NCBI RefSeq assembly: GCF_001975665.1
Contig: NZ_CP019419.1
Location: 1,364,001-1,428,000 of the forward strand
DNA length: 64,000 nucleotides
Source of the DNA: Polaribacter reichenbachii
GTDB taxonomy: Bacteria > Bacteroidota > Bacteroidia > Flavobacteriales > Flavobacteriaceae
Reading direction: 5' to 3'
In this document: positions 15,186-49,445 of the stretch, one piece after another
Numbering within the stretch: position 1 is the first letter of the stretch
How the letters are laid out: every line of letters starts with the position of its first letter
Position numbers and translations under genes: made by a program
Notes under the pieces: generated by a model
Told to the model about the DNA's origin: nothing
The model's input: the letters and a program-made list of their open reading frames with translations, nothing else
Databases searched by the model: none

Positions 15186-15398
15186 TTAAAAGTAAATTTC
15201 TTGTGCTAATCGAAATGTATTAGGATGTGCATTAATAATTATATTAATGTCTTTAGAGTAACCACTTACCATAGAGTATGTTACAGGGGTTTTTGAATTG
15301 AAACAAGTTTGTAAAACAAAGCGATCTCTTTCTTTACAACCCTCAATTGTTAAGGGTAATTTGCCTAGTTTATCAGTTTCTATAACATCTACACAACC
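15186..15398 (-). pseudogene. C-terminal fragment of a histone-deacetylase-family gene
   Basis: Reading the minus strand gives 70 uninterrupted codons ending at a TAA (15186-15188): GVDV(I)ETDKLGKLPLTIEGCK, ERDRFVLQTCF, TPVTYSMVSGYSKDI and NAHPNTFRLAQEIYF. These match the C-terminal pattern of HDAC/AcuC-family deacetylases, in which the middle motif is normally S-M-G-G-G-Y-S; here it is degraded to S-M-V-S-G-Y-S. Upstream the similarity stops at 15398 against an in-frame stop. The matching N-terminal part is at 49212-49445 on the same strand. Confidence 0.85.
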
Positions 15399-15405
15399 TT
15401 ATTGA

Positions 15406-15675
15406 CCATTTGCGAAATTCAACTTACCTCCAAAAAGCCCAAGCCTAGGGGCTATAACATTTATAGGAGACCACCTCAAGCAATATAGTCTAGAAAATGG
15501 TTATACTGCTTTTGAAATATCATTAGAATTAGATGTTTACAATTCTACCATTTATAAGTGGAAAAATAACCTCACAAAACCACAAGCAAAAAGCATACAT
15601 AAAATAATTGAATTTATTGGGTATGACCCAAGAATTCACAAATCATTAAAAACAAAATATTATGAACTCACTTAG
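15406..15675 (+). pseudogene. XRE-like helix-turn-helix protein fragment
   Basis: Open frame of 89 codons without a start codon, from just after the left island junction. It has the pattern of small HTH proteins found beside mobile or accessory genes: SLGAITFIGDHLKQY, FEISLELDVYNSTIYKWKNN and KIIEFIGYDPRIHKSLKTKYY. The HTH is complete, but the start region is cut at the junction. Its stop overlaps the start of the ssb remnant (ATG 15662), so the two were probably one unit. Confidence 0.6.
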
Positions 15676-16001
15676 AAACAAAGTAAATTAATAGAAAATT
15701 TAGGTAACAATCCAGAGATTATAACATAGGACAGGAGTCTGGAAAAAAATTAGCAAAATTTTCTATTGCAACAAATGAAAGTTACAAAAATGCACAAGGA
15801 GAAAAAGCAACAGATACACAATTGCATAATATTGTTGCATGAAACAAAACTTCAGAAATTATAGAAAAATATTTAGAGAAAGGAAATGAAGTGGCAATAG
15901 AAGGGAAGCTAACTTCTAGATCTTATGAAACTAAAGATGGAGAAAAACGTTATGTAACAGAAATTATTTGTAATGAATTATTGATGTTGGGAAGTAAATA
16001 A
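15662..16001 (+). pseudogene. Degenerate ssb copy
   Basis: Starts MNSLRNKV like the ssb at 11265, then breaks by small deletions and in-frame stops (around 15685-15735 and a TGA at 15840). The remaining segments still match along the whole length: KKLAKFSIATNESYKNAQGEKA, NKTSEIIEKYLEKGNEVAIEGKL, RSYETKDGEKRYVTEIICNELL. A terminator is retained at 16027. Confidence 0.88.
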
Positions 16002-16026
16002 TGTGGGAGAATTTTATGTAAAAAAG

Positions 16027-16057
16027 AAAAAGCCGTTCTTTAGAACGGCTTTTTTAT
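16027..16057 (+). terminator. Rho-independent terminator of the ssb remnant
   Basis: 12-bp stem AAAAAGCCGTTC / GAACGGCTTTTT with loop TTTA and a T run. It resembles in position the terminator behind the intact ssb. Confidence 0.92.
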
Positions 16058-16089
16058 TGTAAGTCTAGTATTAAGACCTTATTCTAATT

Positions 16090-16309
16090 TCAGAGAAGGT
16101 TTCTTGTATAAGTAACTTCATTAGTGATAAATGGAATATCTCCTTCTTTTTTAATTAATTTTAAAGCCTTTTTGGCTGATCAGAAGTGTATCGTAAATGT
16201 TTATCTACATCAAAATTATTTACTTCAACACTATTTTTTGGGGTATTTTTGAAACCTACTAATAGTACAAATACTAGGAGTTTTATATGAACTTCATCCT
16301 AGTTTTCAT
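16090..16309 (-). pseudogene. N-terminal remnant of a GH88-type lipoprotein gene
   Basis: The minus strand from ATG 16309 reads MKTRMKFI, then after a stop/frameshift KLLVFVLLVGF, FDVDKHLRYTSDQ, and after another frameshift ALKLIKKEGDIPF. These align with the start of the GH88 protein at 46348 (MVGC, FNVDKQLEYCVAQ, KALKLIPAVGDIPR). Multiple lesions; the rest of the gene is gone. It sits at the left end of the island just downstream of the beta-helix gene. Confidence 0.65.
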
Positions 16310-16358: not shown

Positions 16359-17405
16359 TTATTGCCAACTGTTATTATTAAATGTAACGGAACCAGTTGC
16401 ATAGAAATTTGTATTTGTTCCATTGCCTGTAGAAGTATTTGTAGATATATTGCCACTACTAACATTTCTAACTCTAAAACCAATTTGTCCATTGTTTTTA
16501 GTTTCGTTTTGAAATAAATCTACATTATTAATTATATAACCTGCTTCTCCTTCTACTCTTAGACCTCTAAAAAAATTGTTATTACATTTATTGTATTTCA
16601 AAATAACATCTTCTGATTGAGAGACATTAATTCCATTTGCAGTTGGAGAATTTGTCATTTCAGACTCTCTAAGATGAACTTTAAATACTCTTCTTAAATA
16701 GATGTTATGAAAATAAGTTTCTATTAAACCATTTTGGTGCAACTTAAGGTTTTTCATAAATATGTCTCGCATTCCTTTCAGGTGAATTCCCATAGAACAA
16801 TTTCTTACCTCTACATCTTCAATATTTATATTCTTATTTTCTGCAGTAGCATATGTAGTTCCTTCACCAATTAATTTTATTCCAAAAATATCATCCCTAA
16901 TGCTTGAGTTTGTATACGCTGTGCCAGAAGTATGATAGCTAGGTGGCAAATTTTGTTCTGATGAAATTAAGTTTCCTCTAATTTTAAAATTTCTTAAATT
17001 AATATTAACTATGGGAGATGAATTTGCTATCAAAGGTTCATTAAAACTTGTGGAATTTGGCATTATTATAACGTCATAATAATTTGCAGATGACACACCT
17101 TCTAAATTAACATTAGATTTTAATATAATTGAACTTGAAATTATATGATTTCCTGCTGCTAAATAAACTGTTCCTCCTCCTGAAGAACTCATCGAGTTAA
17201 TTGCATTTTGAATATTTCCTCCAGGATAAACAGTGGTATTACTGGCTAAACTAGCTTGAGAATAATTTAAACTAATGGGTTCATTTATATCTTTTCCCTG
17301 TTTAATTTCGGATAAAATTTGTTCTGTAGTTTCATTGCAAGAATATATTAAAAAAAATAACTGAAGAATTGCTAAGAATTTAATGTTGTTTTTTAAATAC
17401 GTCAT
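16359..17405 (-). CDS. Right-handed beta-helix lipoprotein
   Basis: 348 residues. Lipobox FLIYSCNET near residue 23 and a parallel beta-helix from about 60 on (TVYPGGNIQNAINSMSSSGGGTVYLAAGNH, NVNLEGVSS, NVEIEDVEVRNC-like rungs ending NTSTGNGTNTNFYATG). The opening resembles pectate-lyase-superfamily proteins, but no catalytic residues could be assigned. It may be a lyase, a hydrolase or a binding protein. It is a separate unit: its own copy of the ATAAATTAT repeat lies 61 bases upstream, and 276 bases separate it from the GH43 gene. Confidence 0.7.
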   Translation of the reverse strand: MTYLKNNIKFLAILQLFFLIYSCNETTEQILSEIKQGKDINEPISLNYSQASLASNTTVYPGGNIQNAINSMSSSGGGTVYLAAGNHIISSSIILKSNVNLEGVSSANYYDVIIMPNSTSFNEPLIANSSPIVNINLRNFKIRGNLISSEQNLPPSYHTSGTAYTNSSIRDDIFGIKLIGEGTTYATAENKNINIEDVEVRNCSMGIHLKGMRDIFMKNLKLHQNGLIETYFHNIYLRRVFKVHLRESEMTNSPTANGINVSQSEDVILKYNKCNNNFFRGLRVEGEAGYIINNVDLFQNETKNNGQIGFRVRNVSSGNISTNTSTGNGTNTNFYATGSVTFNNNSWQ

Positions 17406-17466
17406 AATTTAATTTTATTAATGATTAATATTCCTATAAAACTCATTAATAAAAATATAAAAACAA

Positions 17467-17502
17467 ATAAATTATGATCTTAACTCTATAAATTATAGTA
17501 CA
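17467..17502 (-). promoter_or_regulatory. PUL 2 direct-repeat operator candidate (beta-helix gene)
   Basis: ATAAATTATG at 17467-17476 and ATAAATTATA at 17488-17497, start-to-start 21 bases, followed by GTACA. It ends 61 bases before the ATG of the beta-helix gene. Same element as at 31001 and 46194. Confidence 0.65.
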
Positions 17503-17681
17503 TTACACTAAAAAGATATTAAATTTAAATATAAACTAAAAATCTTAGTAAAATTAGTTTGACAAATTGTAATTGATTTTTAATAACATACTACCTAACA
17601 ACAACATTAGTTTCTTCAGATTTTTTGTGATATTCTTGTAAAAATTAGTTTATTCTTTTTTATAAATGCTGACATTTAGTT

Positions 17682-19310
17682 TTATTTTTCTACTTTAAAC
17701 CAATCAAAATCGGCATAACCACCCATTCTTACTTTATCTTCACTTACAGAAAATATGCCCATTTTTGCACTAATCCACAAATCTTTTTCGGCAATAAAAC
17801 CTGTTCCGATTTCTTTAAAACGTTTTCCATCTTCACTATAATAAAATATACAACTTGCATTTGGAGCAGAAACTTCCATTCTTAAAAACACCGTATTTGA
17901 CTTTAATTCTTTTTCTTCAATGATCTTTTCAGCGTTTCCATCAATAGCATTGTTACAAATTATGTGTTGCACCCAATATTTTTCATCATGATATGCTATT
18001 CCAACATATGCATATGACTGCCCCATCATAATTAACCCAGCTGTTTTACCGGGAGTATTCCATTCAGTATTTAAGGTAACCTTTGTTGTTGTTTTAAAAT
18101 TTGGAGCGGGTACTTTTTGTAAAAGTAAACTAGGCATATCCCATAAATTAGGTAATTCCTTTTTACTCATAGCAAACAATCTTAAATAATCAGTTCCCGG
18201 AATTTGAGCACTCCATTTAACAGATGAATTTGCATACCATTGCCACTGCAGATCTGGTTTTCCATTATTAAAATCATCACTTTCTTTGGGTGAAGACAAA
18301 GGCATTCCTTGTACTGGTTTTCTATGTGTAATGATAGGCTCTCCTATTCCATTTCCGTCTATATCTTTCCCCATTTCTGGCCAATTATTTTCCCATAATA
18401 TTGGAGTTACCCAAAGTACCCTACCATAAACTCCCTGATCTTGAAAATGTACAAACCAAGATTCTTTATCAGATGAAGTTACCCAAGCACCTTGATGCGG
18501 TCCATTAATAGTTGTACTCCCTTGCTCTAGAACAATTTTTTCTTGATATGGGCCATATATATTTTTAGACCGTAAAGCCAATTGCCATCCAGTTTCTACA
18601 CCACCAGCAGGTGCTAAAATGTAGTAATAGTCATCTTTTTTATACAATTTTGGTCCTTCTACTGTATGATGATTTTTATGTCCATCAAATACATTTTTTC
18701 CTTCATCTAAAACTTGTGTTCCTTCTTTATTCATAGTTCGCATAGTTAAAACACTATTAATTCCTGCACGACTTCCTGCCCAAGCATGAACCAAATAGGT
18801 GTTTTCTCCATCCCAAAGTGGACAAGGATCTATAATTCCTTTCCCTTCTAAAACTAGTATCGGTTTAGACCATTTTCCATAAACATCATGAGTTTTAACC
18901 ATATAAACTCCAAAATCTGGATCCCCCCAATAAATGTAAAATTCATTGTTATGATAGCGCAGAGAAGGAGCCCAAACCCCTTTACTGTGTTGAGGAATAT
19001 TGAATACTTCCTCAGGAATTTGCTTTTCTAATGCGTAATTAACGATTTCCCAATTCACCAAATCTTTAGAATGTAATATTGGTAAACCAGGAGTGCAATT
19101 AAAACTACTGGCTGTCATATAAAAATCATCACCTACGCGAATAACATCAGGATCTGAATAGTCTGCATATAAAACTGGATTTGTAAATGTTCCATCTTCA
19201 TTATCTGACTGCCAAACTTGAGATACATATTGCTGTGCAAAAGTTGACTGTATCGTTATTATTATTAAATAAAGAGCTTTCTTAATGATTGATTTATCTA
19301 TTAATTTCAT
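17682..19310 (-). CDS. GH43-type exo-glycosidase
   Basis: 542 residues, signal peptide to about 25. The five-bladed propeller starts DGTFTNPVLYADYSDPDVIRVGDDFYMTASSF, where the Asp of YSDPD is the likely base; VEGPKLYKKDDYYYILAPAGG contains the likely acid Glu. The C-terminal 190 residues form a beta-sandwich (DDFNNGKPDLQWQWYAN ... ADFDWFKVEK) as in the xylosidase/arabinosidase subfamilies with an appended domain. Substrate probably a beta-xyloside, alpha-arabinoside or beta-galactoside side group. Last gene of the operon that starts with GH97 at 26768; 7 bases separate it from the DUF4861 gene. Confidence 0.82.
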   Translation of the reverse strand: MKLIDKSIIKKALYLIIITIQSTFAQQYVSQVWQSDNEDGTFTNPVLYADYSDPDVIRVGDDFYMTASSFNCTPGLPILHSKDLVNWEIVNYALEKQIPEEVFNIPQHSKGVWAPSLRYHNNEFYIYWGDPDFGVYMVKTHDVYGKWSKPILVLEGKGIIDPCPLWDGENTYLVHAWAGSRAGINSVLTMRTMNKEGTQVLDEGKNVFDGHKNHHTVEGPKLYKKDDYYYILAPAGGVETGWQLALRSKNIYGPYQEKIVLEQGSTTINGPHQGAWVTSSDKESWFVHFQDQGVYGRVLWVTPILWENNWPEMGKDIDGNGIGEPIITHRKPVQGMPLSSPKESDDFNNGKPDLQWQWYANSSVKWSAQIPGTDYLRLFAMSKKELPNLWDMPSLLLQKVPAPNFKTTTKVTLNTEWNTPGKTAGLIMMGQSYAYVGIAYHDEKYWVQHIICNNAIDGNAEKIIEEKELKSNTVFLRMEVSAPNASCIFYYSEDGKRFKEIGTGFIAEKDLWISAKMGIFSVSEDKVRMGGYADFDWFKVEK

Positions 19311-19317
19311 TTTTATT

Positions 19318-20514
19318 TTATTTTTCTATTGATAATATCAATGGATTTTTAACAATTAAACGTTGTCTCTCTAAGATGTCATCCCAATCCACTTTACTAA
19401 CCACTTGTCCACTTTTTGTCCAAGCAAAACCTGCATAATAACTGAGCTTATTTCCTTTTGGATGAGTAACTATTAATACTTGACTTTGGTCTGGTGTTTT
19501 AGCATCATAATTTATTGATACTTTTACTAACTTTTCATCAATTACAATTCCTTCACCTACAAAAGCATCATCAATTGGCTCCCAATACCTAAACAAACCT
19601 TTTGCTTTATTTAATTTAACCTCTCCTTTTCCATCGTGTTTTGTAATTCCAATGGTATAATTAGGAACTTGTTTTTTAGAAACTAGTTTGATATCGAATT
19701 TTGAAAAATTACTTCCTAAGTCTAAGGATATTCTTTTGCTTTCTTTTACATTGTAGTCACTCCATGGTGCATAATCCAATTCAAAAACTGTTCTTAAAGG
19801 TCCTATTGCAATAGTTTTACAGGTCTTAAAGTTTTTAGAAACATATAAACTATCATTCTCCCAAATACCAATACCTCCAGTTCCTCTACTTTTTCCAACG
19901 TGATAAGGATCATACCCTTCACCATGATCTATATGATAATATCCTTCGGTTTCTACATTTTTAGCATACCATTTGTCAATAATAGAATAGTCTACTTTTT
20001 TTAACCAAAGATCTATTCCACTAGACAAGGTTCCTCCATATTCGTTTTCTTCAATTCTACGCTGTGCTTCAGGTCCATAGGTTCTAAAAGCAACTTTGTC
20101 ATTTTCCCAAGTATAATCATCTGTTCTTTCTGGAACCAATCTAGAAAAAGTAACTGCTTTTGTTTCTTTAACAGTATTGATACTATCGATTACTACAACA
20201 TAATTTACTGAAGCATTTGCTGGAGTTTCTGCCTGAAAAAGTAATTCATCCATTATTCCATCTAGGTTGTTATCTATCCACTGGGTAAGAAGAAAATCTT
20301 CTGTACCTTGTTTTTTTATTTTGATATGTTCTTTTTCAGTATTTTTTAATAACTCAAAAAGATTTTCAGTACCAACGGCTACAACTTCTTTACGCGAAAA
20401 ATCCAAACTATTGGATACCTTTATTGTCAATTCTTTTTTTTCTGTATTGTTTTTACAACTTGAAAAAATTGCGAACACAACTATAAAATTTAAGAGTGTT
20501 AATGATTTTCTCAT
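19318..20514 (-). CDS. DUF4861-family lipoprotein
   Basis: 398 residues, lipobox FAIFSSC near residue 20. The body matches the DUF4861 pattern: FSRKEVVAVG near the start, DDYTWENDKVAFRTYGPEAQRR, GGIGIWENDSLYVSKNF and a C-terminal AGFAWTKSGQV. No activity is known to me for this family, which is often found in PULs for uronic-acid-containing plant and algal glycans. The start overlaps the upstream GH28-like stop by 4 bases, so translation is coupled. Confidence 0.75.
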   Translation of the reverse strand: MRKSLTLLNFIVVFAIFSSCKNNTEKKELTIKVSNSLDFSRKEVVAVGTENLFELLKNTEKEHIKIKKQGTEDFLLTQWIDNNLDGIMDELLFQAETPANASVNYVVVIDSINTVKETKAVTFSRLVPERTDDYTWENDKVAFRTYGPEAQRRIEENEYGGTLSSGIDLWLKKVDYSIIDKWYAKNVETEGYYHIDHGEGYDPYHVGKSRGTGGIGIWENDSLYVSKNFKTCKTIAIGPLRTVFELDYAPWSDYNVKESKRISLDLGSNFSKFDIKLVSKKQVPNYTIGITKHDGKGEVKLNKAKGLFRYWEPIDDAFVGEGIVIDEKLVKVSINYDAKTPDQSQVLIVTHPKGNKLSYYAGFAWTKSGQVVSKVDWDDILERQRLIVKNPLILSIEK

Positions 20515-21911
20515 TTTTTAATATTTATATCATTTGTAAATTTTCCTATGGTAAAAAAAGTAGGATCTTGTGCTGAAATCACTTGACCATTAATTTTTAA
20601 GTTCTGAATCGTGACATCTTTAATTTGCTTGTCTGCACTATATCCTTGAATTAAGGATGGATTGGGAAGCGCTCCAGTATAACTAATGTTTTTAAGTACC
20701 AAACCTTCTATACCTCTACCTGGAGCAGCACTATATTTTTCATTAAAAAACACTCTAAAATTAAACAACTGTCCTTCTTGTATATTGTCTATTCTAATAT
20801 CTTCATAACGGATATTCTTGATTAAATTTTTATCACTACCACTAATAGCCAAACAACCTTGATAGTTGCGATCATCTTCATCATGTTCTAAAATATCTAT
20901 ATTTGAAAAAGTAATATTTTGAATGGTATCTCCAACATGCTCAGCATTTCCATGTAAACCAATATTTGTAGGATGTGCAATATCTGCCCAAAGAATAGAA
21001 TTCTTAATATTGTAGTTTTCTGCATTTCCGTAAAAATTCCAACGATGAGCATAAATAGCAATGCAATCATCTGAATTTCTCATAAATACATTATTTATTT
21101 CTACATCAGAACAAGACATTAAATCAATTCCATCACTCCATCCATTGCTACTAAAAGATTTGATGTTTTTTATGGTTAATCCTTTTGTTTCACCACCATA
21201 TATGGTATAATGTTTTGGATTGATAAAAATTAAACCATCTATGGTTAGGTTTTTAGAATATCTAACCTCAACCCCTCTTTCTGGCTGCATTACAATTCCT
21301 CTACCTATAATTTTTACATCTTTAGCTTTATCTACTAAAAATTTAGCTTTGATAATAGCTCCACCATGCACATAAACGGTTTTTCCTGATGGAATATGAT
21401 ATACATCTCCTGGTTGATCTTTAGGTTGATGTACTCCAGGGCCAAAATAAATAACATTAGGATCTTCAGGATCTGGTCTATGTTTCTCCATAGGATTTGC
21501 AAAAACATGTAAATTATGGAGTTTGTCTCCATTAATTTCAACAGAAAGATTCATCGGTTTATCTAATACAAAAGTGATTTCGTTTCCATTTACATTTGAT
21601 TTTACTCCAGATGATTTTGGTCTAATCTCAACATTGTTAATATTTCCATTATTCTTTCTAACCTTTACTTCTACTTTTTTATCAAAATCAAAATGAACCA
21701 TTGATGCTTTTGATTTGGTATCCAAATCAACCTCAACATTATACTCAAAAAGATCTTTCCATGTTCCCTTTGGCTCTCTTACCAAAACCGTAAAATCATC
21801 ATTATGTGCTGAATATTTATATCCTCCAGGAACTTCATAAATCACAAGATTTTCTTGAGCCGAAATTTGAAAGCAAATCAATGCAATAATAACTCCTATG
21901 AATTTTTTCAT
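20511..21911 (-). CDS. GH28-like parallel beta-helix hydrolase
   Basis: 466 residues from the ATG at 21911, chosen because MKKFIGVIIALICFQISAQ is a signal peptide; an upstream in-frame ATG at 21935 would add eight residues. An N-terminal beta domain (about 20-150) precedes a parallel beta-helix. Asp residues in GWSDGIDLMSC and NSDDCIAI and the following TNIGLHGN occupy the positions of the polygalacturonase active site, but the usual R-I-K motif is absent. GH28 is most likely; a GH49-like fold is an alternative. Substrate unknown; context suggests a uronic acid or deoxysugar linkage. Confidence 0.68.
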   Translation of the reverse strand: MKKFIGVIIALICFQISAQENLVIYEVPGGYKYSAHNDDFTVLVREPKGTWKDLFEYNVEVDLDTKSKASMVHFDFDKKVEVKVRKNNGNINNVEIRPKSSGVKSNVNGNEITFVLDKPMNLSVEINGDKLHNLHVFANPMEKHRPDPEDPNVIYFGPGVHQPKDQPGDVYHIPSGKTVYVHGGAIIKAKFLVDKAKDVKIIGRGIVMQPERGVEVRYSKNLTIDGLIFINPKHYTIYGGETKGLTIKNIKSFSSNGWSDGIDLMSCSDVEINNVFMRNSDDCIAIYAHRWNFYGNAENYNIKNSILWADIAHPTNIGLHGNAEHVGDTIQNITFSNIDILEHDEDDRNYQGCLAISGSDKNLIKNIRYEDIRIDNIQEGQLFNFRVFFNEKYSAAPGRGIEGLVLKNISYTGALPNPSLIQGYSADKQIKDVTIQNLKINGQVISAQDPTFFTIGKFTNDINIKK

Positions 21912-21968
21912 TGTATTTAATTCTTTAAAAAACATCTAATTATTTATCAAAATGAGATAATTTCATCA

Positions 21969-24758: not shown

Positions 24759-24803
24759 ACTATAGAACTCTCTTTCTTTATAAAATATTGATTGCAAAAA
24801 AAA

Positions 24804-26989: not shown

Positions 26990-27000
26990 AGTGAATTATC

Positions 27001-39303: not shown

Positions 39304-39618
39304 AAAAAATTAATTTACAAATATTTATATTTAGTTAATTGTTTTTACAGGCAATAAAAAAAGGGTTTAGTCATTTTTTATTATCTTTTTTTGTTGACAA
39401 AATATTATGTTCTATAGAGATAATTTGCAATATCTTTTTTAACATAATAAAATTGTTTAGTTATAATTTAATAAAAATTTAACCTTAAGAAAACCTTCTT
39501 AAAATTATACCACAATTTTATAACGAAATATGGAAAGTAAGTGTAAATTAAAATTCAATTTTGATTATTTATAGCTCATTTTCACTATAATCTAAATCAT
39601 AAGTATTTGGAAATAAGG
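39304..39618. other. Intergenic region upstream of PUL 2 susC
   Basis: 315 bases between the HTCS stop and the susC start, both on the minus strand. It must hold the susC promoter and a long leader. The only structure I can name is the direct-repeat element at 39543. No hairpin strong enough to call a terminator for the HTCS gene. Confidence 0.5.
39543..39578 (-). promoter_or_regulatory. PUL 2 direct-repeat operator candidate (susC)
   Basis: GTAAATTAAA at 39543-39552 and ATTATTTATA at 39564-39573, period 21, spacer containing TTCA, followed by GCTCA. It matches the 31001 element at 24 of 36 positions. The distance to the start (239 bases) is larger than for the others. Confidence 0.45.
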
Positions 39619-42600
39619 TTATTTTTGATGGTCTTTAAGTTTTTTCTCTAAATATTCTGTTGGTGTTAAACCAAATAATTCTCGGAAAGTTTTACTAAAA
39701 TATGCTGTTGAGTTAAAGCCAGACATGTGTGTAATTTCCTTTATTGAATTCTCATTTTTAAGTAATAATTCAGAAGCATATTTTAAACGAATTGTTCTAA
39801 TAAAACGACTCGGATTTTGTCCTGTGATAGAATTTATTTTTCTATAAAACTGAGATCTTCCAACTCCTATTTCTTTTAACAAATTATCTAATTTGTAATC
39901 TGGGTCTGATATGTTGTCAATAATTGCTTTAGTTGTTTTGTCTAAAAAAGCTTCATCTAAACTATTAGATGTAATTTCACTAGATGCAACAACTCCTCCA
40001 AAAGAAGCAAACCTATCTCTTAATCTTTTTTTAGCTTCTAATAAATTTTTAATTCTTGCTCTTAAAATATTAACGTTAAAAGGTTTAGATAAATATTCAT
40101 CAGCACCTGTATTATAGCCTTCTATTTGATCTTCTTCAAGGCTTCTTGCCGTCAACAAAATAATTGGAATATGACAAATATCAATTTCAGTTTTTATTAA
40201 ACGGCATAACTCAAATCCATCCATTTTTGGCATCATTACATCACTTATTACTAAATCTGGGTGGTATTTTTTTATTTTTTCTAATCCAACAACTCCATTT
40301 GCAGCTTCAATTATTTTAAAAGAATTACTAAATTCGTATACTAAATGTTTTCTTAATTCATTATTATCTTCTACAACTAAAATTACTTGTTTTTTCTTAC
40401 CATCTGAGTTAGAATCAATATTTTTAATTTGTGTATCTATATTTTTTGTATTAACTCCTATTTCATATTCTGCTGATTGAACACTAGCAATATCAAATTC
40501 ATTAATGTACTTATTTTTATCATCTATAAATTCGCTATTTTTATTTTTTAGATTTAGGGGTAATAAAACAGTAAAAATGCTTCCCTCTTTATATTTACTT
40601 TCTACAAATATTTCGCCTTGATGTAGGGTTACAAGTCCTTTGGTTATATTTAAACCAATTCCCATACCTGTTTTGGTATTTCCTGCATTTACAAATCTGC
40701 CAAAAACATTTTTAAGTTGTTCTTTTTTAAATCCAACACCTGTGTCTTTAATTTCTATTTGAATAAATTCCTCAAAATTTTTCTTTTTTGAAATTTTTGA
40801 ATATAGTGTTTTACTCTTTTCACTTAGACTGGAAATTGAAAGCTTTACTGTACCACCTTTGTTAGTGTATTTTATAGCATTAGAAATTAAATTAGTAATA
40901 ATTTTTTCAACTTTATCTGGATCAAAATTTATTTCCAATTCTGTAAAAGCACTTTTAAATTTATACTTAATACCTTTTGATTTTGCTAATCCTTTAAATA
41001 ACTTAAAAACATCTTTACTATACTTAATTAAATCTCCATCTACGAGTTTAAGAGGAACTTTGCCTAAATCCATTTTTCTAAAATCTAATAACTGATTTAC
41101 CAAATAGTATAGTCTCTTAGCACTTCTTTGCAACGTATAGGCATTTTCTTTAACTACTTCAGGTTTATTAAATGACGAAATAATTTTATCTACAGGATTT
41201 AAAATTAAAGTAAGAGGTGTTCTTAATTCATGCGAAACATTAATAAAAAATTTTAATTTCATTTGATCTAATTCATGCTCCTTCTCCTCATTTATATTTT
41301 TGGTATAATAGTAAAGACCCACAAAAAATAATAAAATAAAAATAATAAAATAAGAAACGTATGCCCACCAAGTTTTCCATAATGGGGGTGATATATGAAT
41401 GTTAATTGAAGTTACTTCTGCATTATTCCAATTATTATCTAATGAAGCTTTAACTTGAAAAACATAATCTCCATTAGGAATACTAGAATAATTTGCTAAC
41501 CTATCTTCTCCTGCTTTTATAAAATCATCATGAATACCTAGCATTCTATATTGATACTTTACATGTTTTTGGTTTTTATAATTAAAGGCAACAAATTCAA
41601 AAGTTAAAAAACCTTGATCATATCTTAACTCTAACAAATCTGTATTTGAAATAGAATTACTTAATACTACCTTATTATCAATTTCTTGTTCAACCCTTAC
41701 AACCTTATTAAACATTTTAAGTTTAGTTATTATGGGTTTTAAGGGTTTTGATTTTATTACTATATCTTTTGGATTAAAAAAGTTAAATCCATTTATACCC
41801 CCAGCAATTATTCTACCATCACTAGCTTTATCTATGGATTTACTTTGAAATTCTATTCCTTGTACACCATCTTGAGTGTTGAAATTATAAAATTTATCTT
41901 CTTTAACTTGGTATTTTGACAAACCACTTTTAGTAGTAATCCATAAATTAAAATCATCATCTTCTTGTATGCCTAAAACTAAATTATTTGGTAATCCTTG
42001 TGAAGTGGTGTATGATTTTATAAGTTTTAGCTGAGCATTTAATTGATACATACCAATATCAGTTCCTAACCAAATATTACCTTTGTGGTCTTCCGTAATA
42101 AAATTTATACGAGTACCTAAAATTGGGTTTTCTTTTAATTCTGAAAAATTTATTTTATTTGGTATATAACCGTCCAAGCTATCTAGCATTACAATTGCTA
42201 AACCTTCAGATGTTCCTACTAATAGTCTGTTTTTAGAGTCTATAAAGATGGAAAAGACAAGGTCACTCATTAAGCTGTTGTTATTTCCCTGTTCGTTTTT
42301 AAATTTTTTAAACTTTTTTGTAAGAGGGTTAAATAAGTTTAATCCTTCTGTTTGTGTTCCAACCCAAAGTCTATGTTCTTTGTCTTCTACAGCACACCAA
42401 ACAGTATTTTGGCCAATGGAATAAGGATTCTGTTGTTGGTATTTAAATTGTTCAAAACTCTCAGTTTTAGGGTTAAATTTATTCAATCCACCATCCCAAG
42501 TACAAACCCATAAAGTTTTATCAAAACTTTCGGTTAAGTATACTATTTTATCAGAACTCAATGAGTTTGGATTATTTGAATCTGCTCTATAATGTTTAAA

Positions 42601-43815
42601 GGTTCCTTTTTCTTCATCAAATAAATTAAGACCACCACCATCAATCCCTATCCAAACCCTATTATTACTATCTTGTAATACTGATTGTGCTATTTTAGAA
42701 CTTAAGCCATTCTTTTTTCCAAATTCATAAAAATAATGTCCAAAATCTGATTTAGACAATACCAATTTACTTATTCCTTTATTATAAGATCCAAACCAAA
42801 AAACACCTTCTTTGTCTTCAAGTATACTTGCTGGTTGGTTATTTGGAAGAGAAAATTCATTGAAAGGGTTATAAACAATATGTTGTATTAATCCTTTGTT
42901 TTTATCAAAAAGGAATAATCCATCACCATCAGTTGCTATCCAAATAATTCCTTTTTTATCTTGATATATATCAAAGATTTGCGCATTACTTTCTTTTGAA
43001 AAAACTTGTTTAAATTTATTATTTTTTCTATCCCAAATAATTAATAAAGACATATCACTACCAAACCAAAAATCGCCATTATTATCTACAAGCAGTTGTT
43101 TTACTGTATGATTTAACAAAAAAGAATTTGGAATATTTATATGTACTCTATTAAAATTATCATTTTGAGAATTATATTTATTTAAAAATTCACCTTCGGT
43201 TATAGCCCAAATAATACCTGCATTATCTTTTACTATTTTAGTACTATTATTGTTATCTATTGAGTTTTGGTTGGTTTTATTATTTGAATAATGCTTAACA
43301 ATAAAATCTTTTTTCCCGACATTTTTGTTATTACCCTTTAAACTTAATTTAAAGACACCTTTTTTAGTAGCAATCCACAGTAAATTTGTAGATTGGTCAA
43401 AATATAAATCATTAATAATATCTCCTTGATTTGCAAAATCTAACCCTTTTTTGTGTAGTGGAACGTAATGGAATACTTCTTTCTTTTTGTCAAAAACATT
43501 TAAGCCATTATTAGTTCCAATCCATAAATTTCCATAGCTATCTTCAGTTATTGTATTTATTCTGTTGTTACTAATTGAGTTTGAGTCATTCAATATCGGT
43601 CTATATATTTCAAATACATAGCCATCATATCTGTTTAAACCATCAATAGTTCCAAACCACATAAACCCTTCACTGTCCTCAAATATTTCTGTACTTGTAC
43701 TACTAGATAATCCTTTGTTTGTATCTAAATTTTCAAACTTAAGATTAGCGTACTGAGAAAATACTTGCGCAGAAGATAAGAAGATTAGAAAAAAAATAAA
43801 TCTTGTTCTTTTCAT
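39619..43815 (-). CDS. Hybrid two-component system (HTCS) regulator of PUL 2
   Basis: 1398 residues. Signal peptide; about 14 Reg_prop propeller repeats (GFMWFGTIDGLNRYDG, NLWIGTNNGLN, LWVGTQTEGLN...) to about 700; Y_Y_Y domain (YQYRMLGIHDDFIKAGEDRLANYSSIPNGDYVF); transmembrane helix near 800; histidine kinase with His862 in SHELRTPL and GMGIGLNITKGLV; receiver domain with Asp1192 in VISDVMMPKMDG; AraC-type HTH at the C-terminus (FNSTAYFSKTFRELFGLTPTEYL). It senses a PUL 2 oligosaccharide in the periplasm and activates PUL genes. All phosphotransfer residues are present. Likely ligand of the ATAAATTAT direct repeats. Confidence 0.96.
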   Translation of the reverse strand: MKRTRFIFFLIFLSSAQVFSQYANLKFENLDTNKGLSSSTSTEIFEDSEGFMWFGTIDGLNRYDGYVFEIYRPILNDSNSISNNRINTITEDSYGNLWIGTNNGLNVFDKKKEVFHYVPLHKKGLDFANQGDIINDLYFDQSTNLLWIATKKGVFKLSLKGNNKNVGKKDFIVKHYSNNKTNQNSIDNNNSTKIVKDNAGIIWAITEGEFLNKYNSQNDNFNRVHINIPNSFLLNHTVKQLLVDNNGDFWFGSDMSLLIIWDRKNNKFKQVFSKESNAQIFDIYQDKKGIIWIATDGDGLFLFDKNKGLIQHIVYNPFNEFSLPNNQPASILEDKEGVFWFGSYNKGISKLVLSKSDFGHYFYEFGKKNGLSSKIAQSVLQDSNNRVWIGIDGGGLNLFDEEKGTFKHYRADSNNPNSLSSDKIVYLTESFDKTLWVCTWDGGLNKFNPKTESFEQFKYQQQNPYSIGQNTVWCAVEDKEHRLWVGTQTEGLNLFNPLTKKFKKFKNEQGNNNSLMSDLVFSIFIDSKNRLLVGTSEGLAIVMLDSLDGYIPNKINFSELKENPILGTRINFITEDHKGNIWLGTDIGMYQLNAQLKLIKSYTTSQGLPNNLVLGIQEDDDFNLWITTKSGLSKYQVKEDKFYNFNTQDGVQGIEFQSKSIDKASDGRIIAGGINGFNFFNPKDIVIKSKPLKPIITKLKMFNKVVRVEQEIDNKVVLSNSISNTDLLELRYDQGFLTFEFVAFNYKNQKHVKYQYRMLGIHDDFIKAGEDRLANYSSIPNGDYVFQVKASLDNNWNNAEVTSINIHISPPLWKTWWAYVSYFIIFILLFFVGLYYYTKNINEEKEHELDQMKLKFFINVSHELRTPLTLILNPVDKIISSFNKPEVVKENAYTLQRSAKRLYYLVNQLLDFRKMDLGKVPLKLVDGDLIKYSKDVFKLFKGLAKSKGIKYKFKSAFTELEINFDPDKVEKIITNLISNAIKYTNKGGTVKLSISSLSEKSKTLYSKISKKKNFEEFIQIEIKDTGVGFKKEQLKNVFGRFVNAGNTKTGMGIGLNITKGLVTLHQGEIFVESKYKEGSIFTVLLPLNLKNKNSEFIDDKNKYINEFDIASVQSAEYEIGVNTKNIDTQIKNIDSNSDGKKKQVILVVEDNNELRKHLVYEFSNSFKIIEAANGVVGLEKIKKYHPDLVISDVMMPKMDGFELCRLIKTEIDICHIPIILLTARSLEEDQIEGYNTGADEYLSKPFNVNILRARIKNLLEAKKRLRDRFASFGGVVASSEITSNSLDEAFLDKTTKAIIDNISDPDYKLDNLLKEIGVGRSQFYRKINSITGQNPSRFIRTIRLKYASELLLKNENSIKEITHMSGFNSTAYFSKTFRELFGLTPTEYLEKKLKDHQK

Positions 43816-44389
43816 TCTAAAAATTAAATACTACTAAATATAAGTTTTGAATTGTAAAAAAAATGATGCTTACATATTAAGAATTATATTCTTATAGTAA
43901 GTGTAAAAATACAATTTAAAAGTTTTTACAATTAAATAACTACTTTTTTTTCAAAATATTTTCAAATTTCTTTTTTTTTATAATTTAAAGACAATCCTCT
44001 AATTAAATTTTTTGTTCAAACTCTTTAGCGAATATTAAAAATTTAATCTCAAGTATTTCAAATACTATTAGATTCAGTAATAATAAAAAGAATCCGCTTT
44101 ATAATGGGTTTTAAGTAACCTATATTGAATTATAATTTATACAATTTAGTATGCATAATAAGTAATATTGAAAAATCAATTTTGCATTTTTATTTAATTG
44201 AGAGAAATTAAAACAAAAGCAGAATAGTTTCCAAAAAAAGAGTGTGCTTATGTAATCACTTTTTTTAATTGCAGGTTTATGTTAACTAATAATACTTGAG
44301 TTTTTACATTTATTAATGCTAAAAATAATTCTCTTGGATGAAAGTTTACAATCTATCTTACAATAAGAATTATAATTGAAAAACAGAAA
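43816..44389. other. Intergenic region between divergent HTCS and kduI genes
   Basis: 574 AT-rich bases with no credible gene. Visible: a 15-base palindrome AGTATTTCAAATACT at 44052-44066; TATAATTTAT at 44131-44140 followed 23 bases on by CATAATAAGT, a weaker relative of the PUL 2 direct repeat in the orientation of kduI; and a weak AT hairpin near 44235-44266. The large gap suggests long leaders or unrecognised control sites for both genes. Confidence 0.5.
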
Positions 44390-45232
44390 ATGAATAAAAA
44401 TTATGAGATTAGATACGCTTCTAATCCAGAAGCAGTAAAAAAATACGATACAACATTTTTACGAAGTGAGTTTATTGTTAAAAGCGTAATAAAAGTAGAT
44501 GAAATAAAGTGGGTTTATTCTCATTATGATAGATTTATGGTAGCAGGTGTAGCTCCAATTAAAAAATCAATAGAACTAGAATCAATAGAACCTTTAAAAA
44601 CGGATTATTTTTTAAATAGAAGAGAATTAGGAATCATAAATATTGGTGAAACTGGAATCGTATCTGTAGATGGTACAGAATACACTCTTCATAATAAAGA
44701 AGCATTATATCTTGGCAAAGGAAATAAAAGTGTTGTATTTTCTAGTAAATCTCCCAAAACCCCGGCACAATTTTATTTAAACTCAACTCCTGCTCATAGA
44801 GCATTTCCTAATAAAAAAATTGGAATTAAAGATGTTGAAGTTGTTGAGTTAGGTACTCCAGAAACAGCAAATGCACGTACATTAAGAAAATATATTGTTA
44901 ATGGCGTTGTAGAGGTTTGTCAGCTTCAAATGGGGATGACTACCTTAAAATCTGGTAGTGTTTGGAATACAATGCCAGCGCATGTGCATGATAGAAGAAT
45001 GGAAGTTTATTTCTATTTCGAAATCCCCAAAGATCAAGCTGTATGTCATTTTATGGGAGAGCCAATCCAAACAAGGCATCTTTGGCTACAAAATAATGAA
45101 GCAGTTATATCTCCTCCTTGGTCTATTCATTCAGGATCAGGTACAAGTAATTATACATTTATTTGGGGAATGGCAGGTGAAAATCTTGACTATGGAGATA
45201 TGGATGTATGTAAAATAAACGAATTAAAATAA
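44390..45232 (+). CDS. kduI: 5-dehydro-4-deoxy-D-glucuronate isomerase
   Basis: 280 residues, cytoplasmic. Converts 5-keto-4-deoxyuronate, formed spontaneously from unsaturated uronate, to 2,5-diketo-3-deoxygluconate. Family opening NYEIRYASNPEAVKKYDTT; metal site in MPAHVHDRRMEVYFYF and SIHSGSGTSNY; usual length near 280. Followed after 18 bases by kduD, the next enzyme. Confidence 0.94.
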   Translation: MNKNYEIRYASNPEAVKKYDTTFLRSEFIVKSVIKVDEIKWVYSHYDRFMVAGVAPIKKSIELESIEPLKTDYFLNRRELGIINIGETGIVSVDGTEYTLHNKEALYLGKGNKSVVFSSKSPKTPAQFYLNSTPAHRAFPNKKIGIKDVEVVELGTPETANARTLRKYIVNGVVEVCQLQMGMTTLKSGSVWNTMPAHVHDRRMEVYFYFEIPKDQAVCHFMGEPIQTRHLWLQNNEAVISPPWSIHSGSGTSNYTFIWGMAGENLDYGDMDVCKINELK

Positions 45233-45250
45233 CTAAATTATTAAAAAATT

Positions 45251-46042
45251 ATGTCAATTAACTTATTTGATTTAACAGGAAAAGTAGCTCTAATAACAGG
45301 AGCAGTTCATGGATTAGGAATGGCTATGGCTAAAGGACTTGGAAATGCAGGAGCCACTATTGTAGTTAATAATAACTCAACAGAAAAATTAGAAGAAGCT
45401 GTTAACATATATAAAAAAGCAGGACTAAATGCTTATGGATATGTTTTTGATGTTACTGATGAAGAATCTGTAATTGAAGCCATCACAAAAATAGAAGCAG
45501 AAGTTGGCTCTATTGATATTCTAGTAAATAATGCTGGAATTATTAAAAGAACACCAATTGTAGATATGGAAGTTATAGACTTTGAATCGGTTATAAAAGT
45601 TGATCTAATTGGTCCCTTTATTGTTTCTAAAAATATTGCTAAAGGAATGATTAAAAGAGGAGGTGGGAAAATCATAAATATTTGTTCTATGATGAGTGAA
45701 TTAGGTAGAGATTCTGTAAGCGCTTATGCAGCTGCTAAAGGTGGCTTAAAAATGCTAACAAAAAATATGGCAACAGAATGGGCTAAGTTTAATATTCAAA
45801 CAAACGGTATTGGTCCAGGTTATTTTGCTACAAGTCAAACAGCACCAATTAGAGTTGATGGTCATCCTTTTAATGATTTTATTATTAGTAGGACGCCTGC
45901 TGGTAGATGGGGAGAACCAGAAGATTTACAAGGAGCTGCAATCTTTTTAAGTTCAAAAGCGAGTGATTTTGTAAACGGACATGTAGTTTATGTTGATGGC
46001 GGAATTTTGGCCACAATAGGAAAACCTTTAGATGAAAACTAA
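45251..46042 (+). CDS. kduD: 2-deoxy-D-gluconate 3-dehydrogenase / KduD-type SDR
   Basis: 263 residues, Rossmann short-chain dehydrogenase. Nucleotide motif TGAVHGLG (T-G-x3-G-x-G), NNAGI, and catalytic YAAAKGG. Reduces 2,5-diketo-3-deoxygluconate to 2-keto-3-deoxygluconate. Assigned by pairing with kduI and by family length. KdgK and KdgA, needed to finish the pathway, are not in this window. Confidence 0.9.
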   Translation: MSINLFDLTGKVALITGAVHGLGMAMAKGLGNAGATIVVNNNSTEKLEEAVNIYKKAGLNAYGYVFDVTDEESVIEAITKIEAEVGSIDILVNNAGIIKRTPIVDMEVIDFESVIKVDLIGPFIVSKNIAKGMIKRGGGKIINICSMMSELGRDSVSAYAAAKGGLKMLTKNMATEWAKFNIQTNGIGPGYFATSQTAPIRVDGHPFNDFIISRTPAGRWGEPEDLQGAAIFLSSKASDFVNGHVVYVDGGILATIGKPLDEN

Positions 46043-46347
46043 TATTTTATTATATATAAAGCCAAAATTAATAAAGCTTAGGCAAATAAATTGTAAAAGA
46101 TAAATACCTCTTATTGTACTTTATGTAAATATTATGCTTATAAATACTAGTCGGAATAGGCTTAAGATGACATTTTTTGTTAGTTATAAGAGTTGTACCT
46201 ATAATTTATATGGATTGAATCATAATTTATGTTGTTGTGAATTTATTCTCAATAATATTGCTACTATCTAATACTTATGAATTTTAATATGATAATTTAT
46301 ATAATATAGGTTTTATTAAAAAGGTTAAGAAAATTGAAGAGAATAAT
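46043..46347. other. Intergenic region upstream of the GH88 gene
   Basis: 305 bases, AT-rich, no gene seen. It carries one well-preserved direct-repeat operator candidate (46194-46230), which implies that GH88 and the transporter have their own promoter apart from kduI-kduD. Confidence 0.5.
46194..46230 (+). promoter_or_regulatory. PUL 2 direct-repeat operator candidate (GH88)
   Basis: TATAATTTAT at 46200-46209 and CATAATTTAT at 46221-46230, period 21. It is the reverse complement of the 31001 element, so it has the same orientation relative to its gene. Spacer contains GAAT (ATTC on the other strand), as in the other copies. 117 bases before the GH88 ATG. Confidence 0.65.
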
Positions 46348-47568
46348 ATGAATATTAAATTACAAATTTTAGGATTATTTTTTGGAGCATTCCTAATGGT
46401 TGGATGTGCTAATACTTCTAATAAAATTTTTAATGTAGATAAACAATTAGAATATTGTGTAGCACAATCTTCTAAAGCATTAAAGTTAATTCCAGCAGTA
46501 GGAGATATTCCAAGAAATATAGCACCAAATTCTAAAGAGTGGAGGTATGTAAATTATAAAGATTGGACAAGTGGATTTTGGCCTGGAGAACTTTGGTATT
46601 TATATGATTTTACCGGAGATAAAAAAATAGAAAAAGAAGCAGAAAAATTTACATCTTATTTAAAACCCTTATCTGTAACTCCAGCTTTAGATCATGATTT
46701 AGGTTTTCAGGTGTTTAATAGTTATGGAAATGGATATAAATTAACCAAAAAAGAAATATACAAAGAAGTAATTCTGAAAGCAGCAGATACCCTAGCAACA
46801 CTTTTTAATCCAAAAGTAGGAACAATCCTTTCTTGGCCTAGGGAAGTTCCGAATATGGAATGGCCTCAGCACAATACTATTATGGACAATATGATCAATT
46901 TAGAATTGTTGTTTTGGGCATCAAAAAACGGAGGAGACAAATCATTGTATGATATGGCTGTAAGTCATGCTGATGTAACAATGAAAAATCATTTTAGACC
47001 CGATTATACTTCGTACCATGTGGTTGTTTACGATAAAGAAACAGGAGAGAAAATTAAAGGAGTAACACATCAAGGTTATAGTGATGATAGTATGTGGGCA
47101 CGTGGTCAATCTTGGGCTATTTACGGTTATACTATGGTATATAGAGAAACAAAAGATCCAAAGTATTTAGACTTTGCACAAAATGTGACTCAAGTATATT
47201 TAGATCGATTGCCAAAAGATTTAATCCCTTATTGGGATTTTGATGATCCATTAATTCCAAATACATCAAGAGATGCATCTGCAGCTGCAGTTGTTGCATC
47301 AGCATTGTTGGAGTTATCAACATTTACTAAAGATGCTAAACTCTCTAAAGAATATTTACAAAAAGCAGAAAAAATGTTAATAGAACTTTCTTCAAGCTAT
47401 CAAAGTCATGATGTGAATTCAGCTTGTTTATTATATTCCACAGGACACAAACCAGCAAAATCAGAAATAGATTATTCTATAATATATGCAGACTATTATT
47501 ATGTAGAAGCATTATTGAAATATAAAAAGTTAAAAGAAGGAAAACCGTTATTATCTCCATTAGAATAG
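46348..47568 (+). CDS. GH88 unsaturated uronyl hydrolase lipoprotein
   Basis: 406 residues. Lipobox FLMVGC near residue 20. The alpha/alpha-barrel has DWTSGFWPGELWYLYDF, MDNMINLELLFWAS (catalytic Asp region), DDSMWARGQSWAIYGYTM and DASAAAVVASALLEL, all typical of GH88. Removes the 4,5-unsaturated uronic acid left at the non-reducing end by lyases, which is evidence that PUL 2 glycan is cut by beta-elimination. Upstream of the MFS gene by 7 bases. A degraded N-terminal copy is at 16090-16309. Confidence 0.9.
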   Translation: MNIKLQILGLFFGAFLMVGCANTSNKIFNVDKQLEYCVAQSSKALKLIPAVGDIPRNIAPNSKEWRYVNYKDWTSGFWPGELWYLYDFTGDKKIEKEAEKFTSYLKPLSVTPALDHDLGFQVFNSYGNGYKLTKKEIYKEVILKAADTLATLFNPKVGTILSWPREVPNMEWPQHNTIMDNMINLELLFWASKNGGDKSLYDMAVSHADVTMKNHFRPDYTSYHVVVYDKETGEKIKGVTHQGYSDDSMWARGQSWAIYGYTMVYRETKDPKYLDFAQNVTQVYLDRLPKDLIPYWDFDDPLIPNTSRDASAAAVVASALLELSTFTKDAKLSKEYLQKAEKMLIELSSSYQSHDVNSACLLYSTGHKPAKSEIDYSIIYADYYYVEALLKYKKLKEGKPLLSPLE

Positions 47569-47575
47569 AAAAAAC

Positions 47576-48898
47576 ATGAATAATAAAATATTAATTTGGT
47601 CTATTACTGCCGCTCTGGCTGGTTTTTTATTTGGTTTTGATACGGTAGTAATTTCTGGAGCTGAAAAAAAACTTCAACTTTTATGGGGCTCAAGTGATGC
47701 TTTTCACGGAATGGTAGTGATTGGTATGGCTTTATGGGGAACTGTTATAGGGGCAATACTAGGTGGAATTCCAGCGAATAAATTAGGAAGAAAAAATACT
47801 TTGATTTGGATTGGTATATTCTATACCATTTCTGCAATTGGTTCTGGTTTGGCAAATGATGCCATTACTTTTGCGATATTTAGATTCATTGGTGGTTTAG
47901 GAGTAGGAGCTTCTACTATTGCTGCACCTGCTTATATTTCTGAAATTGCACCTGCAAAAGATAGAGGTAAATTGGTTGGTCTTTATCAGTTTAATATCGT
48001 TTTTGGTATTTTAATAGCTTTTGGTTCAAATTATTTATTAAACGATATTGGAGAGAATGATTGGAGGTGGATGGTTGGAATAGAAGCTGTTCCTGCTGCA
48101 ATTTATACTTTGTTAGCATTTACATTACCAAAAAGTCCTAGATGGTTATTAACAAAATTAAAAACTGTTGAGGCAAAAGAAGTTCTAGAAAAAATAAATC
48201 CAAACAAAGATTCGGAAGAATTAATGGCTCAAATTAAAGTAGAGATGGATCGTACAGTACCCAATGAAAATATATTTATTAAAAAGTATAGGTTTCCAAT
48301 GATACTGGCTTTTTTGATTTCATTCTTTAATCAATTATCTGGAATTAATGCTTTGTTATATTATTCCCCTAGAATCTTAACAGAGGCGGGGCTTGAAGAA
48401 AGTTCTGCTTTGTTAAGTAGTATAGGTGTAGGAGTAACTAATTTGATTTTTACTCTACTAGGGATTTACTTGATTGATAAATTAGGTAGAAAACAGTTGA
48501 TGTATATCGGGTCAATAGGTTATATTATTTCTTTATCATTGGTTTCTTTAGCATTCTTTTTTGATTGGGAAGGTAGTTATATGCCCATATTTTTATTCGC
48601 TTTTATTGCTGCACATGCTATTGGTCAAGGAACAGTTATTTGGGTGTTTATTTCAGAAATTTTCCCCAATCATTTAAGAGGTTCTGGTCAATCTTTTGGT
48701 AGTTCAGTGCATTGGGTACTGGCTGCAATTGTGCCTTCGTTAGTACCAATGCTGTTTTCTACCATTGGAGCAGGAGCTGTATTTGCTTTTTTTGCTTTTA
48801 TGATGGTATTTCAGTTATTGTTTGTTCTTTTTATGATGCCAGAAACCAAAGGAAAAACTTTAGAAGAGTTACAAAGTATGATTATAAAAAAGAATTAA
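47576..48898 (+). CDS. Sugar porter family MFS transporter
   Basis: 440 residues, about 12 transmembrane helices. Sugar porter signatures: GFLFGFDTVVISGAEK at the start, GRKNTLIWIG, PKSPRWLLTK, GINALLYYSPRI, GRKQLMYIGS, HLRGSGQSFGSS and the end PETKGKTLEEL. Proton-driven uptake over the inner membrane of a monosaccharide freed by PUL 2, perhaps the unsaturated uronate or a neutral sugar. Last gene before the right island edge. Confidence 0.92.
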   Translation: MNNKILIWSITAALAGFLFGFDTVVISGAEKKLQLLWGSSDAFHGMVVIGMALWGTVIGAILGGIPANKLGRKNTLIWIGIFYTISAIGSGLANDAITFAIFRFIGGLGVGASTIAAPAYISEIAPAKDRGKLVGLYQFNIVFGILIAFGSNYLLNDIGENDWRWMVGIEAVPAAIYTLLAFTLPKSPRWLLTKLKTVEAKEVLEKINPNKDSEELMAQIKVEMDRTVPNENIFIKKYRFPMILAFLISFFNQLSGINALLYYSPRILTEAGLEESSALLSSIGVGVTNLIFTLLGIYLIDKLGRKQLMYIGSIGYIISLSLVSLAFFFDWEGSYMPIFLFAFIAAHAIGQGTVIWVFISEIFPNHLRGSGQSFGSSVHWVLAAIVPSLVPMLFSTIGAGAVFAFFAFMMVFQLLFVLFMMPETKGKTLEELQSMIIKKN

Positions 48899-48966
48899 TT
48901 ATATGTAGAGTGTATTTTTGTTAATTTATAGTTTGATTTAATCTTTAAGAAATATTTTACCCGTTT

Positions 48967-49012
48967 TACAAACGTTTACAAATAATTACAAACGAAAGTA
49001 ATTGATTTGTAA
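48967..49012 (+). promoter_or_regulatory. Iterated TACAAA element before the ssb remnant
   Basis: TACAAA at 48967, 48977 and 48987 (period 10), then CGAAAGTAATTGATTTGTAA. It is nearly the same as the element at 11138-11183 upstream of the intact ssb, so promoter and start of an ssb gene were captured together. Confidence 0.55.
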
Positions 49013-49118
49013 TGGAATAAAATTGTAATGACGTCTCAACTATACAAAGTCAAAACAAATTGACATAAACAAATTATAAACTAGCACTTAAATAAATAAT
49101 GTTTAAAAACCTTATCTT

Positions 49119-49217
49119 ATTAATAGGTTAATAAACAAAGTACAGTTAATTGGAAACTTAGATAACAACCCAGAAATCATAACTTTAAATAGTGGTAAAA
49201 AATTAGCACAATTTTCT
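49119..49217 (+). pseudogene. 5-prime fragment of an ssb gene
   Basis: 33 codons that match the start of the ssb at 11265: INRLINKVQLIGNLDNNPEI, then TLNSGKKLAQFS. The start codon is changed to ATT. At 49212-49217 (TTTTCT) the sequence passes directly into the N-terminal part of the deacetylase gene on the other strand, so this is a recombination junction. Confidence 0.88.
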
Positions 49218-49445
49218 AGCTGCTTTCTGATTTAAAGTTATGTTTAATAAATCAAAAAAATATTCAGGTTCGTGAACGGTAAAAAAGTGTTTATTGTTGG
49301 GTATTTTTGGTTCAAAGAAGTTTTCTGGTTGGCAAGTACCTTCGTATAATAATTGTTGAGGTAGCAAATCGTACTTTTCCATAGGAAAACGATGTCCTTC
49401 TTTTAATGGATGGTTGTAAATAGGATGATATGCTATTTTAATCAT
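49203..49445 (-). pseudogene. N-terminal fragment of a histone-deacetylase-family gene
   Basis: Starts MIKIAYHPIYNHPLKEGHRF, continues PMEKYDLLPQQLLYEGTC, HFFTVHEPEYFFDLLNITL and QKAARK, the typical N-terminus of flavobacterial HDAC/AcuC-like deacetylases (about 300 residues). After AARK the frame runs into the ssb fragment and stops three codons later. The catalytic His/Asp metal-binding middle is missing. The C-terminal 70 codons are at 15186-15398. Confidence 0.88.

Follow-up and report, generated by a model that had tools for sequence, protein, structure and literature searches.

A polysaccharide utilization locus within a split deacetylase gene of Polaribacter reichenbachii, flanked by sequences resembling an ssb-targeting element

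Polysaccharide utilization loci (PULs) ride on integrative and conjugative elements in gut Bacteroides, and cassette chromosomes of the staphylococcal type combine a serine recombinase, insertion at one gene and a variable cargo. The present analysis concerns 64,000 nucleotides of Polaribacter reichenbachii DNA (contig NZ_CP019419.1, positions 1,364,001 to 1,428,000; hereafter the window, to which coordinates refer unless another genome is named), in which a PUL lies within a split deacetylase gene and next to remnants of an apparently ssb-targeting element.

Even a single genus of marine Flavobacteriia shows differing PUL repertoires, which are thought to be exchanged horizontally (PMC6298971), and PUL exchange by horizontal transfer is also described in PMC13188876. 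The physical route of such exchange is seldom visible; here the joins point to a carrier that can be tested, namely an ssb-targeting element equipped with an ssb copy of its own, and the ssb scraps at the edges together with the element's landing site suggest how PUL blocks move. As with the gut Bacteroides elements, a PUL appears to have moved between species on or near mobile DNA, whereas the host is Polaribacter and the mobile DNA is a serine-recombinase relic. No transfer genes were noticed next to the PUL of the window, no systematic search for them having been made.

Three further systems were compared. Serine-recombinase integrative elements and integration at pseudo-attB sites, as with phiBT1 in Nocardia (PMC5937489), likewise involve Resolvase and Recombinase domains, a fixed attachment core and insertion inside a gene; in contrast, the target here is ssb, a spare ssb stands behind a helix-turn-helix (HTH) gene at the left end, and no recombinase was found in the window genome. 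The Enterococcus cassette chromosome is a cited example of the staphylococcal-type cassettes (PMC6222049); compared by description, such cassettes share a serine recombinase, one target gene and variable cargo with the Polaribacter element, which differs in its target gene and carries a replacement copy of it. Homology-facilitated illegitimate recombination (PMC3240628) resembles the present case in that one homologous and one microhomology end are possible, but the left end here lies at an attachment core and not at a random site. Among the papers listed for the terms used in searches of an open-licence library, none dealt with integration into ssb, judging by title and beginning of the abstract, and serine-recombinase elements inserted there with a spare ssb behind an HTH gene are possibly undescribed so far.

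Split deacetylase gene and its empty site

The split deacetylase was confirmed. Intact deacetylases, seven from the genus and one from another family, were used as tblastn queries, and all eight gave two matches in the window, corresponding to both ends of one 300-residue protein. The two lie on the minus strand and are ordered as expected for a single gene that has been interrupted, as an earlier note on this DNA had proposed (Table 1). Residues 80-232 are missing (153 residues, where about 150 had been estimated), and with them the GGTHH and DVHQGNG stretches of intact deacetylases. The flanks are separated by 33,814 bp (15398-49211), the earlier note having given 33.8 kb, and the neighbours of the site are, as claimed, the iorAB-like genes and metG. 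The intact protein of P. porphyrae NBRC 108759, a member of the same genus (genome G015), matched Pfam Hist_deacetyl with E 6.7e-56. In the 4.13-Mb window genome, no deacetylase copy besides the two fragments was found at E<=1.

An exact empty site was present in Polaribacter vadi B2M17, the nearest named relative among those compared (metG 96% identical in amino acids). In this genome, the counterparts of window 11141-15397 (85% nucleotide identity) and 49212-49448 (89%) are collinear, with 458 bp between them, and the gene order is ssb, an open reading frame of 137-138 residues, iorA, iorB, an intact deacetylase and metG. Neither the PUL nor a second ssb was observed within the 20.9 kb examined, and the island is absent from the orthologous site of this nearest relative seen. 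Against the empty site, both joins are readable to a few bases.

An intact deacetylase between iorAB and metG, with no PUL there, had been expected in close relatives. This arrangement was found in P. vadi B2M17, in genome G016 (direct iorB-deacetylase-metG order) and in G009 (with one or two small extra genes), but the gene is not universal in the genus. Among 35 other same-genus genomes scanned, 20 carried the deacetylase, every one as an open frame of 300-315 residues; 15 did not, and as 12 of these are at least 92% complete, its distribution is patchy. All 20 neighbourhoods were read, one or two of them in part only. In a contig scan, the gene was uninterrupted at 80 of 80 loci, these being the best 80 of 339 confirmed matches and biased to intact genes because the scan retains best matches. 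A 472-residue gene between deacetylase and metG (window 49449-50867; no Pfam match) also occurs in G009 (71%) and is absent in P. vadi.

The earlier note had further supposed that the locus was eroded before the insertion. No sign of this was seen, because the deacetylase is whole in P. vadi and the fragments are little decayed: ratios of nonsynonymous to synonymous substitution against P. vadi were about 0.04 and 0.21 for the two fragments, while the corresponding parts of two intact genes gave 0.07 and 0.10.

Edge remnants and the element family

The PUL does lie between the deacetylase fragments; the PUL proper (16359-48898), however, reaches neither of them, and the deacetylase edges do not pin its own edges, since ssb- and HTH-derived relics lie between. 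In a repeat comparison within the window, pieces resembling the resident ssb were found at both PUL edges. Such repeats might raise the thought of an assembly artefact, which is hardly credible here: the genome is a single contig of 99.99% completeness, the longer repeats are only about 70-84% alike, and the breaks fall in unique deacetylase sequence. On the left, the match to genus DNA past the ssb pseudogene stops by about 16034.

Table 1. Positions of the features discussed, in window coordinates
Feature	Position	Strand	Evidence
Intact 111-aa resident ssb (11265-11600) with its upstream region	11138..11600	+	Pfam SSB E 1.5e-32; mosaic
iorAB-like pair (2Fe-2S protein, molybdopterin-binding subunit), left flank	12301..15000	+	Pfam Fer2_2, MoCoBD_1/2; collinear in P. 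vadi, blastn 85% (11141-15397)
Deacetylase remnant, residues 233-300	15392-15189	-	tblastn, 68-84% identity, best E 2.4e-33
Left junction: deacetylase joined to ssb/attachment-core sequence of integrative element	15386..15401	+	Alignment with 8 element left ends and intact deacetylases
Degenerate HTH gene, left-end gene of element	15402..15665	+	86% to G059, 84% to G013; intact 95-aa copy of G177 Pfam HTH_3 E 5.3e-9
ssb pseudogene (stops, frameshift)	15662..16002	+	Mosaic: codons 2-11 of element type; from codon 25 on, almost every site of host type
Terminator-like hairpin and U-run behind ssb pseudogene	16026..16055	+	-17.5 kcal/mol, z -4.74
PUL	16359..48898		Pfam; homologous PUL in G249
Second ssb upstream region, followed by codons 1-33 of ssb (start codon lost)	48951..49218	+	82% to G013 2494956-2495223; host (H) type at 11/11 informative sites
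Deacetylase remnant, residues 1-79	49445-49209	-	tblastn, 77-87% identity (7 genus queries), best E 1.0e-43
metG, right flank	50878..52932	-	96% aa in P. vadi

The HTH segment was found in 9 of 166 genus genomes, the window's own counted and weak matches in 21 further genomes (39-46 bits) left out. In all eight other carriers, the HTH end is joined to ssb at one fixed point, after the first 57 or so codons, and is followed by a second ssb, which is divergent in G006. In five of the eight (G177, G156, G067, G139 and G006), a serine recombinase forms the other end of the element; these proteins are 82-100% identical to the 495-residue protein of G177 (Pfam Resolvase E 2.2e-29, Recombinase E 6.8e-18), and the 3' end of the gene runs into CAACAACGTGGCAY and then into ssb-like sequence. 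The approximate length of the element is 66, 52 and 46 kb in G177, G156 and G139, respectively, while in G067 and G006 its two ends are on different contigs. G177 also encodes a TraD/HerA-like ATPase. The arrangement points to an integrative element that would land in ssb and bring its own ssb copy.

The elements of 46-66 kb occupy loci L194-L197 in G177 (1522532-1588595), L201-L203 in G139, and L198-L200 with L208 in G156; by look, their cargo includes restriction/defence-like genes. Recombinase homologues in G013 and G015 are only 42-45% identical and lie far away, and none was found in G059 at E<=1e-30. In G013 (L089, 11047-16613), ssb is interrupted by the HTH gene, followed by an intact second ssb, a pair of genes that looks AbiE-like, others that look transposase-like and then the 3' piece of ssb; this is a decayed element with another cargo. 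G025 encodes a 57% relative of the recombinase at a distance of about 31 kb from an ssb gene, on the same contig as the deacetylase (contig 7, 16663-49429); it possibly represents a second element subfamily.

Window 15386-16002 has the attachment core, HTH gene and spare ssb of an element left end in decayed form. It is called a relic and not a member of the family, because no serine recombinase stands at its right end (E<=1e-30, whole genome). The left join reads ACATCTACAC followed by AACCTTATTGACCATTTGCG; the parental sequences are ACATCTACACCACATAA in the G013 deacetylase and TGGCAYMAYRTNGTTGACCAT in the element left ends, with CAC(A/C)AC common to both, and the join lies within the core that the two kinds of element end have in common. 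A clean palindromic attachment site on the element was considered and dropped, as a matching half-site was present in only 4 of 8 left ends; therefore just the shared core is claimed. The earlier conclusion that the PUL entered without an integrase does not follow: although no such recombinase was found in the genome (E<=1e-30), the left join falls at the attachment core of an element of the serine-recombinase kind. The right join lies inside TTTTCTA, an exact 7-bp match shared by AAAATTTTCTAT of the G013 ssb and CCAATTTTTCTAG of the P. vadi deacetylase, the window reading CACAATTTTCTAG.

The ssb genes themselves are mosaic, as evaluated by permutation tests that assume independence of sites. 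Across 28 informative sites, the left ssb pseudogene begins with 6 sites of element type, after which 20 of 22 are of host type (p 0.0002); for the resident ssb this test gave p 0.035. When the resident gene was compared at 72 sites with the P. vadi and element types, it followed the P. vadi type at 12 of the first 13 sites (codons 1-16), was mostly element-like at about codons 17-66, and agreed with P. vadi again at 10 of the last 16 sites, in its 3' part, with p 0.0005 for the first switch only. The mosaic left ssb and the three blocks of the resident ssb suggest that recombination in ssb probably took place more than once at this locus. The proposal that the resident and left ssb are reciprocal products of one crossover was abandoned, given the three-block mosaic revealed by P. 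vadi and the host type of the right piece throughout. The element-like patch of the resident ssb (11265-11600) spans the attachment site and may be what is left of an earlier insertion that recombination has repaired.

Possible routes of entry

The tentatively favoured course of events, to which we assign somewhat under an even chance, is that an element landed in the deacetylase, that the PUL became attached through recombination in ssb and that a deletion followed on the right. The left end of an ssb-targeting element (attachment core, HTH gene, spare ssb) would have interrupted the deacetylase at about codon 232, presumably through its recombinase. A foreign PUL would then have joined this end by homologous recombination within ssb, which would explain its position behind the element's left end; the same recombination would also account for the second copy of the ssb upstream region and of the 5' piece beyond the PUL. 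Finally, a deletion at the shared TTTTCTA, from ssb codon 33 to deacetylase codon 79, would have removed the recombinase end and 153 deacetylase codons. The order of these steps is the one that appears plausible. The scheme builds on features seen directly in the sequences, namely the empty site, the edge sequences, the element family with its two kinds of end in relatives, the coincidence at the left end, the mosaic ssb and the microhomology. A PUL-like cluster about 8 kb behind the same HTH-ssb end in P. porphyrae was also counted in its favour.

Several points weigh against this course of events. The hexamer CAC[AC]A[CT] occurs at three places in the 903-bp P. vadi deacetylase and is weak alone, its weight deriving from its position at the element's core; wider likeness to an attachment site at the left join was not visible by eye, in an unscored comparison. 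No recombinase of this kind was detected in the window genome (E<=1e-30), so that its action is unseen. The right ssb piece is of host type also at codons 25-31, where strict reciprocity with the left ssb predicts element type, and no single genome is the best match to the edge pieces throughout. No relative with an intermediate stage was found, and the coincidences were weighed informally.

The arrangement of the edges in relatives counts for the favoured course and also bears on a rather unlikely alternative, the integration of a permuted 33-kb circle containing the PUL, the ssb upstream region, the ssb 5' piece, the HTH gene and ssb, by one crossover with the deacetylase near the ssb/HTH junction. 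Window 48951-49218 and 15392-16000 match G013 2494956-2495223 and 2495283-2495897, which are 60 bp apart there, and the corresponding pieces stand side by side in the seven other carriers. That both window edges are neighbours, about 60 bp apart in ssb coordinates, is explained more directly by a single opening point of a circle than by the favoured sequence of landing, ssb recombination and deletion, and host type throughout the right piece is allowed. In this model, ssb would lose about 60 bp and the deacetylase 457 bp. The circle would, however, require recombination of a hybrid site, which serine integrases use inefficiently without a directionality factor (PMC3783163); the mosaic left ssb would also be left to an earlier event.

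Microhomology at both joins would suit a linear donor DNA, with tandem copies of ssb on either side of the PUL, entering through one homologous and one illegitimate end or through two illegitimate ends, a route close to the double recombination of the earlier note. Recombination of the first type is known (PMC3240628). This origin is quite unlikely, as two independent ends would both have to hit ssb, at positions that correspond to within about 60 bp, and one of the two would have to be the attachment core; a double illegitimate insertion, although possible, gives no account of why both ends lie in ssb.

Finally, the resident ssb lies 3.6 kb from the deacetylase, and the interval between the two genes is variable among relatives, ranging on shared contigs from about 60 bp in G023 to about 125 kb in G015, with SusC-like genes inside it in G013 and G015. 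A local two-step rearrangement could make use of this proximity: the PUL would have been at the neighbouring ssb beforehand, and a small block with iorAB would have been excised and reinserted upstream. Such a history, already weakened, is improbable. At the 5' end, the resident ssb together with its upstream region resembles P. vadi, whereas the copies at the two edges belong to other types; and neither a PUL nor a second ssb was seen in the P. vadi segment.

More generally, it is a somewhat doubtful proposition that a Polaribacter family of serine-recombinase elements lands in ssb, substitutes an own copy for it and in this way goes on producing pairs of ssb repeats, that PULs enter and hop by means of these repeats and of the landing chemistry, and that ssb would thus be a PUL gateway of the genus.

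Content, origin and surroundings of the PUL

The PUL contains a SusC/SusD pair (SusD_RagB E 3e-45, TonB plug), a hybrid two-component regulator, a sugar transporter and a set of carbohydrate-active and related enzymes: pectate-lyase-like, DUF4861, heparinase II/III-like and alginate-lyase-like proteins, members of glycoside hydrolase (GH) families GH43, GH28, GH97 and GH88, KduI, and a short-chain dehydrogenase that we take, from its position, to be KduD. Judging from this gene content, its substrate, a polysaccharide of plant or algal type, is likely a pectin- or other uronate-type glycan.

Gene comparisons suggest that the PUL was acquired horizontally, as the earlier note held, although its base composition does not differ (guanine plus cytosine content 0.296, against 0.311 and 0.294 in the flanks). 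It appears foreign to the genus: relatives of its heparinase-like protein were found in 4 of 165 other genus genomes (E<=1e-100), at 36-44% identity, and a genome scan with this protein gave no confirmed match. Closer proteins are encoded in G249, from another genus of the family, where one cluster holds seven PUL proteins at 65-87% identity (GH43 84%, sugar transporter 87%) and five at 39-51%. There are no tRNA genes in the window, and hence no tRNA edge of the kind seen with tyrosine-integrase islands. The heparinase-like and DUF4861 proteins were used as PUL markers because the sugar transporter proved misleading, belonging to other loci in the six places read. A GH88 remnant suspected at 16130-16220 from inverted repeats was rejected, tblastn giving no match at E<=1.

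By look, the region resembles a hotspot. A second cluster that looks PUL-like lies between a conserved gene, presumably of the DUF2256 type (no Pfam match), and the resident ssb (window 1-10980; L116 14835-20000). A GH30 and GH2 gene pair (window 55476-59754) is absent from P. vadi at this place, and G249 has a comparable adjacent pair (65%) about 15 kb away from its related PUL. Of the 16 loci read in relatives, 10 have the DUF2256-type gene next to ssb and 4 more have a single gene between the two, while in P. vadi another gene, of 593 aa, is located upstream of ssb.

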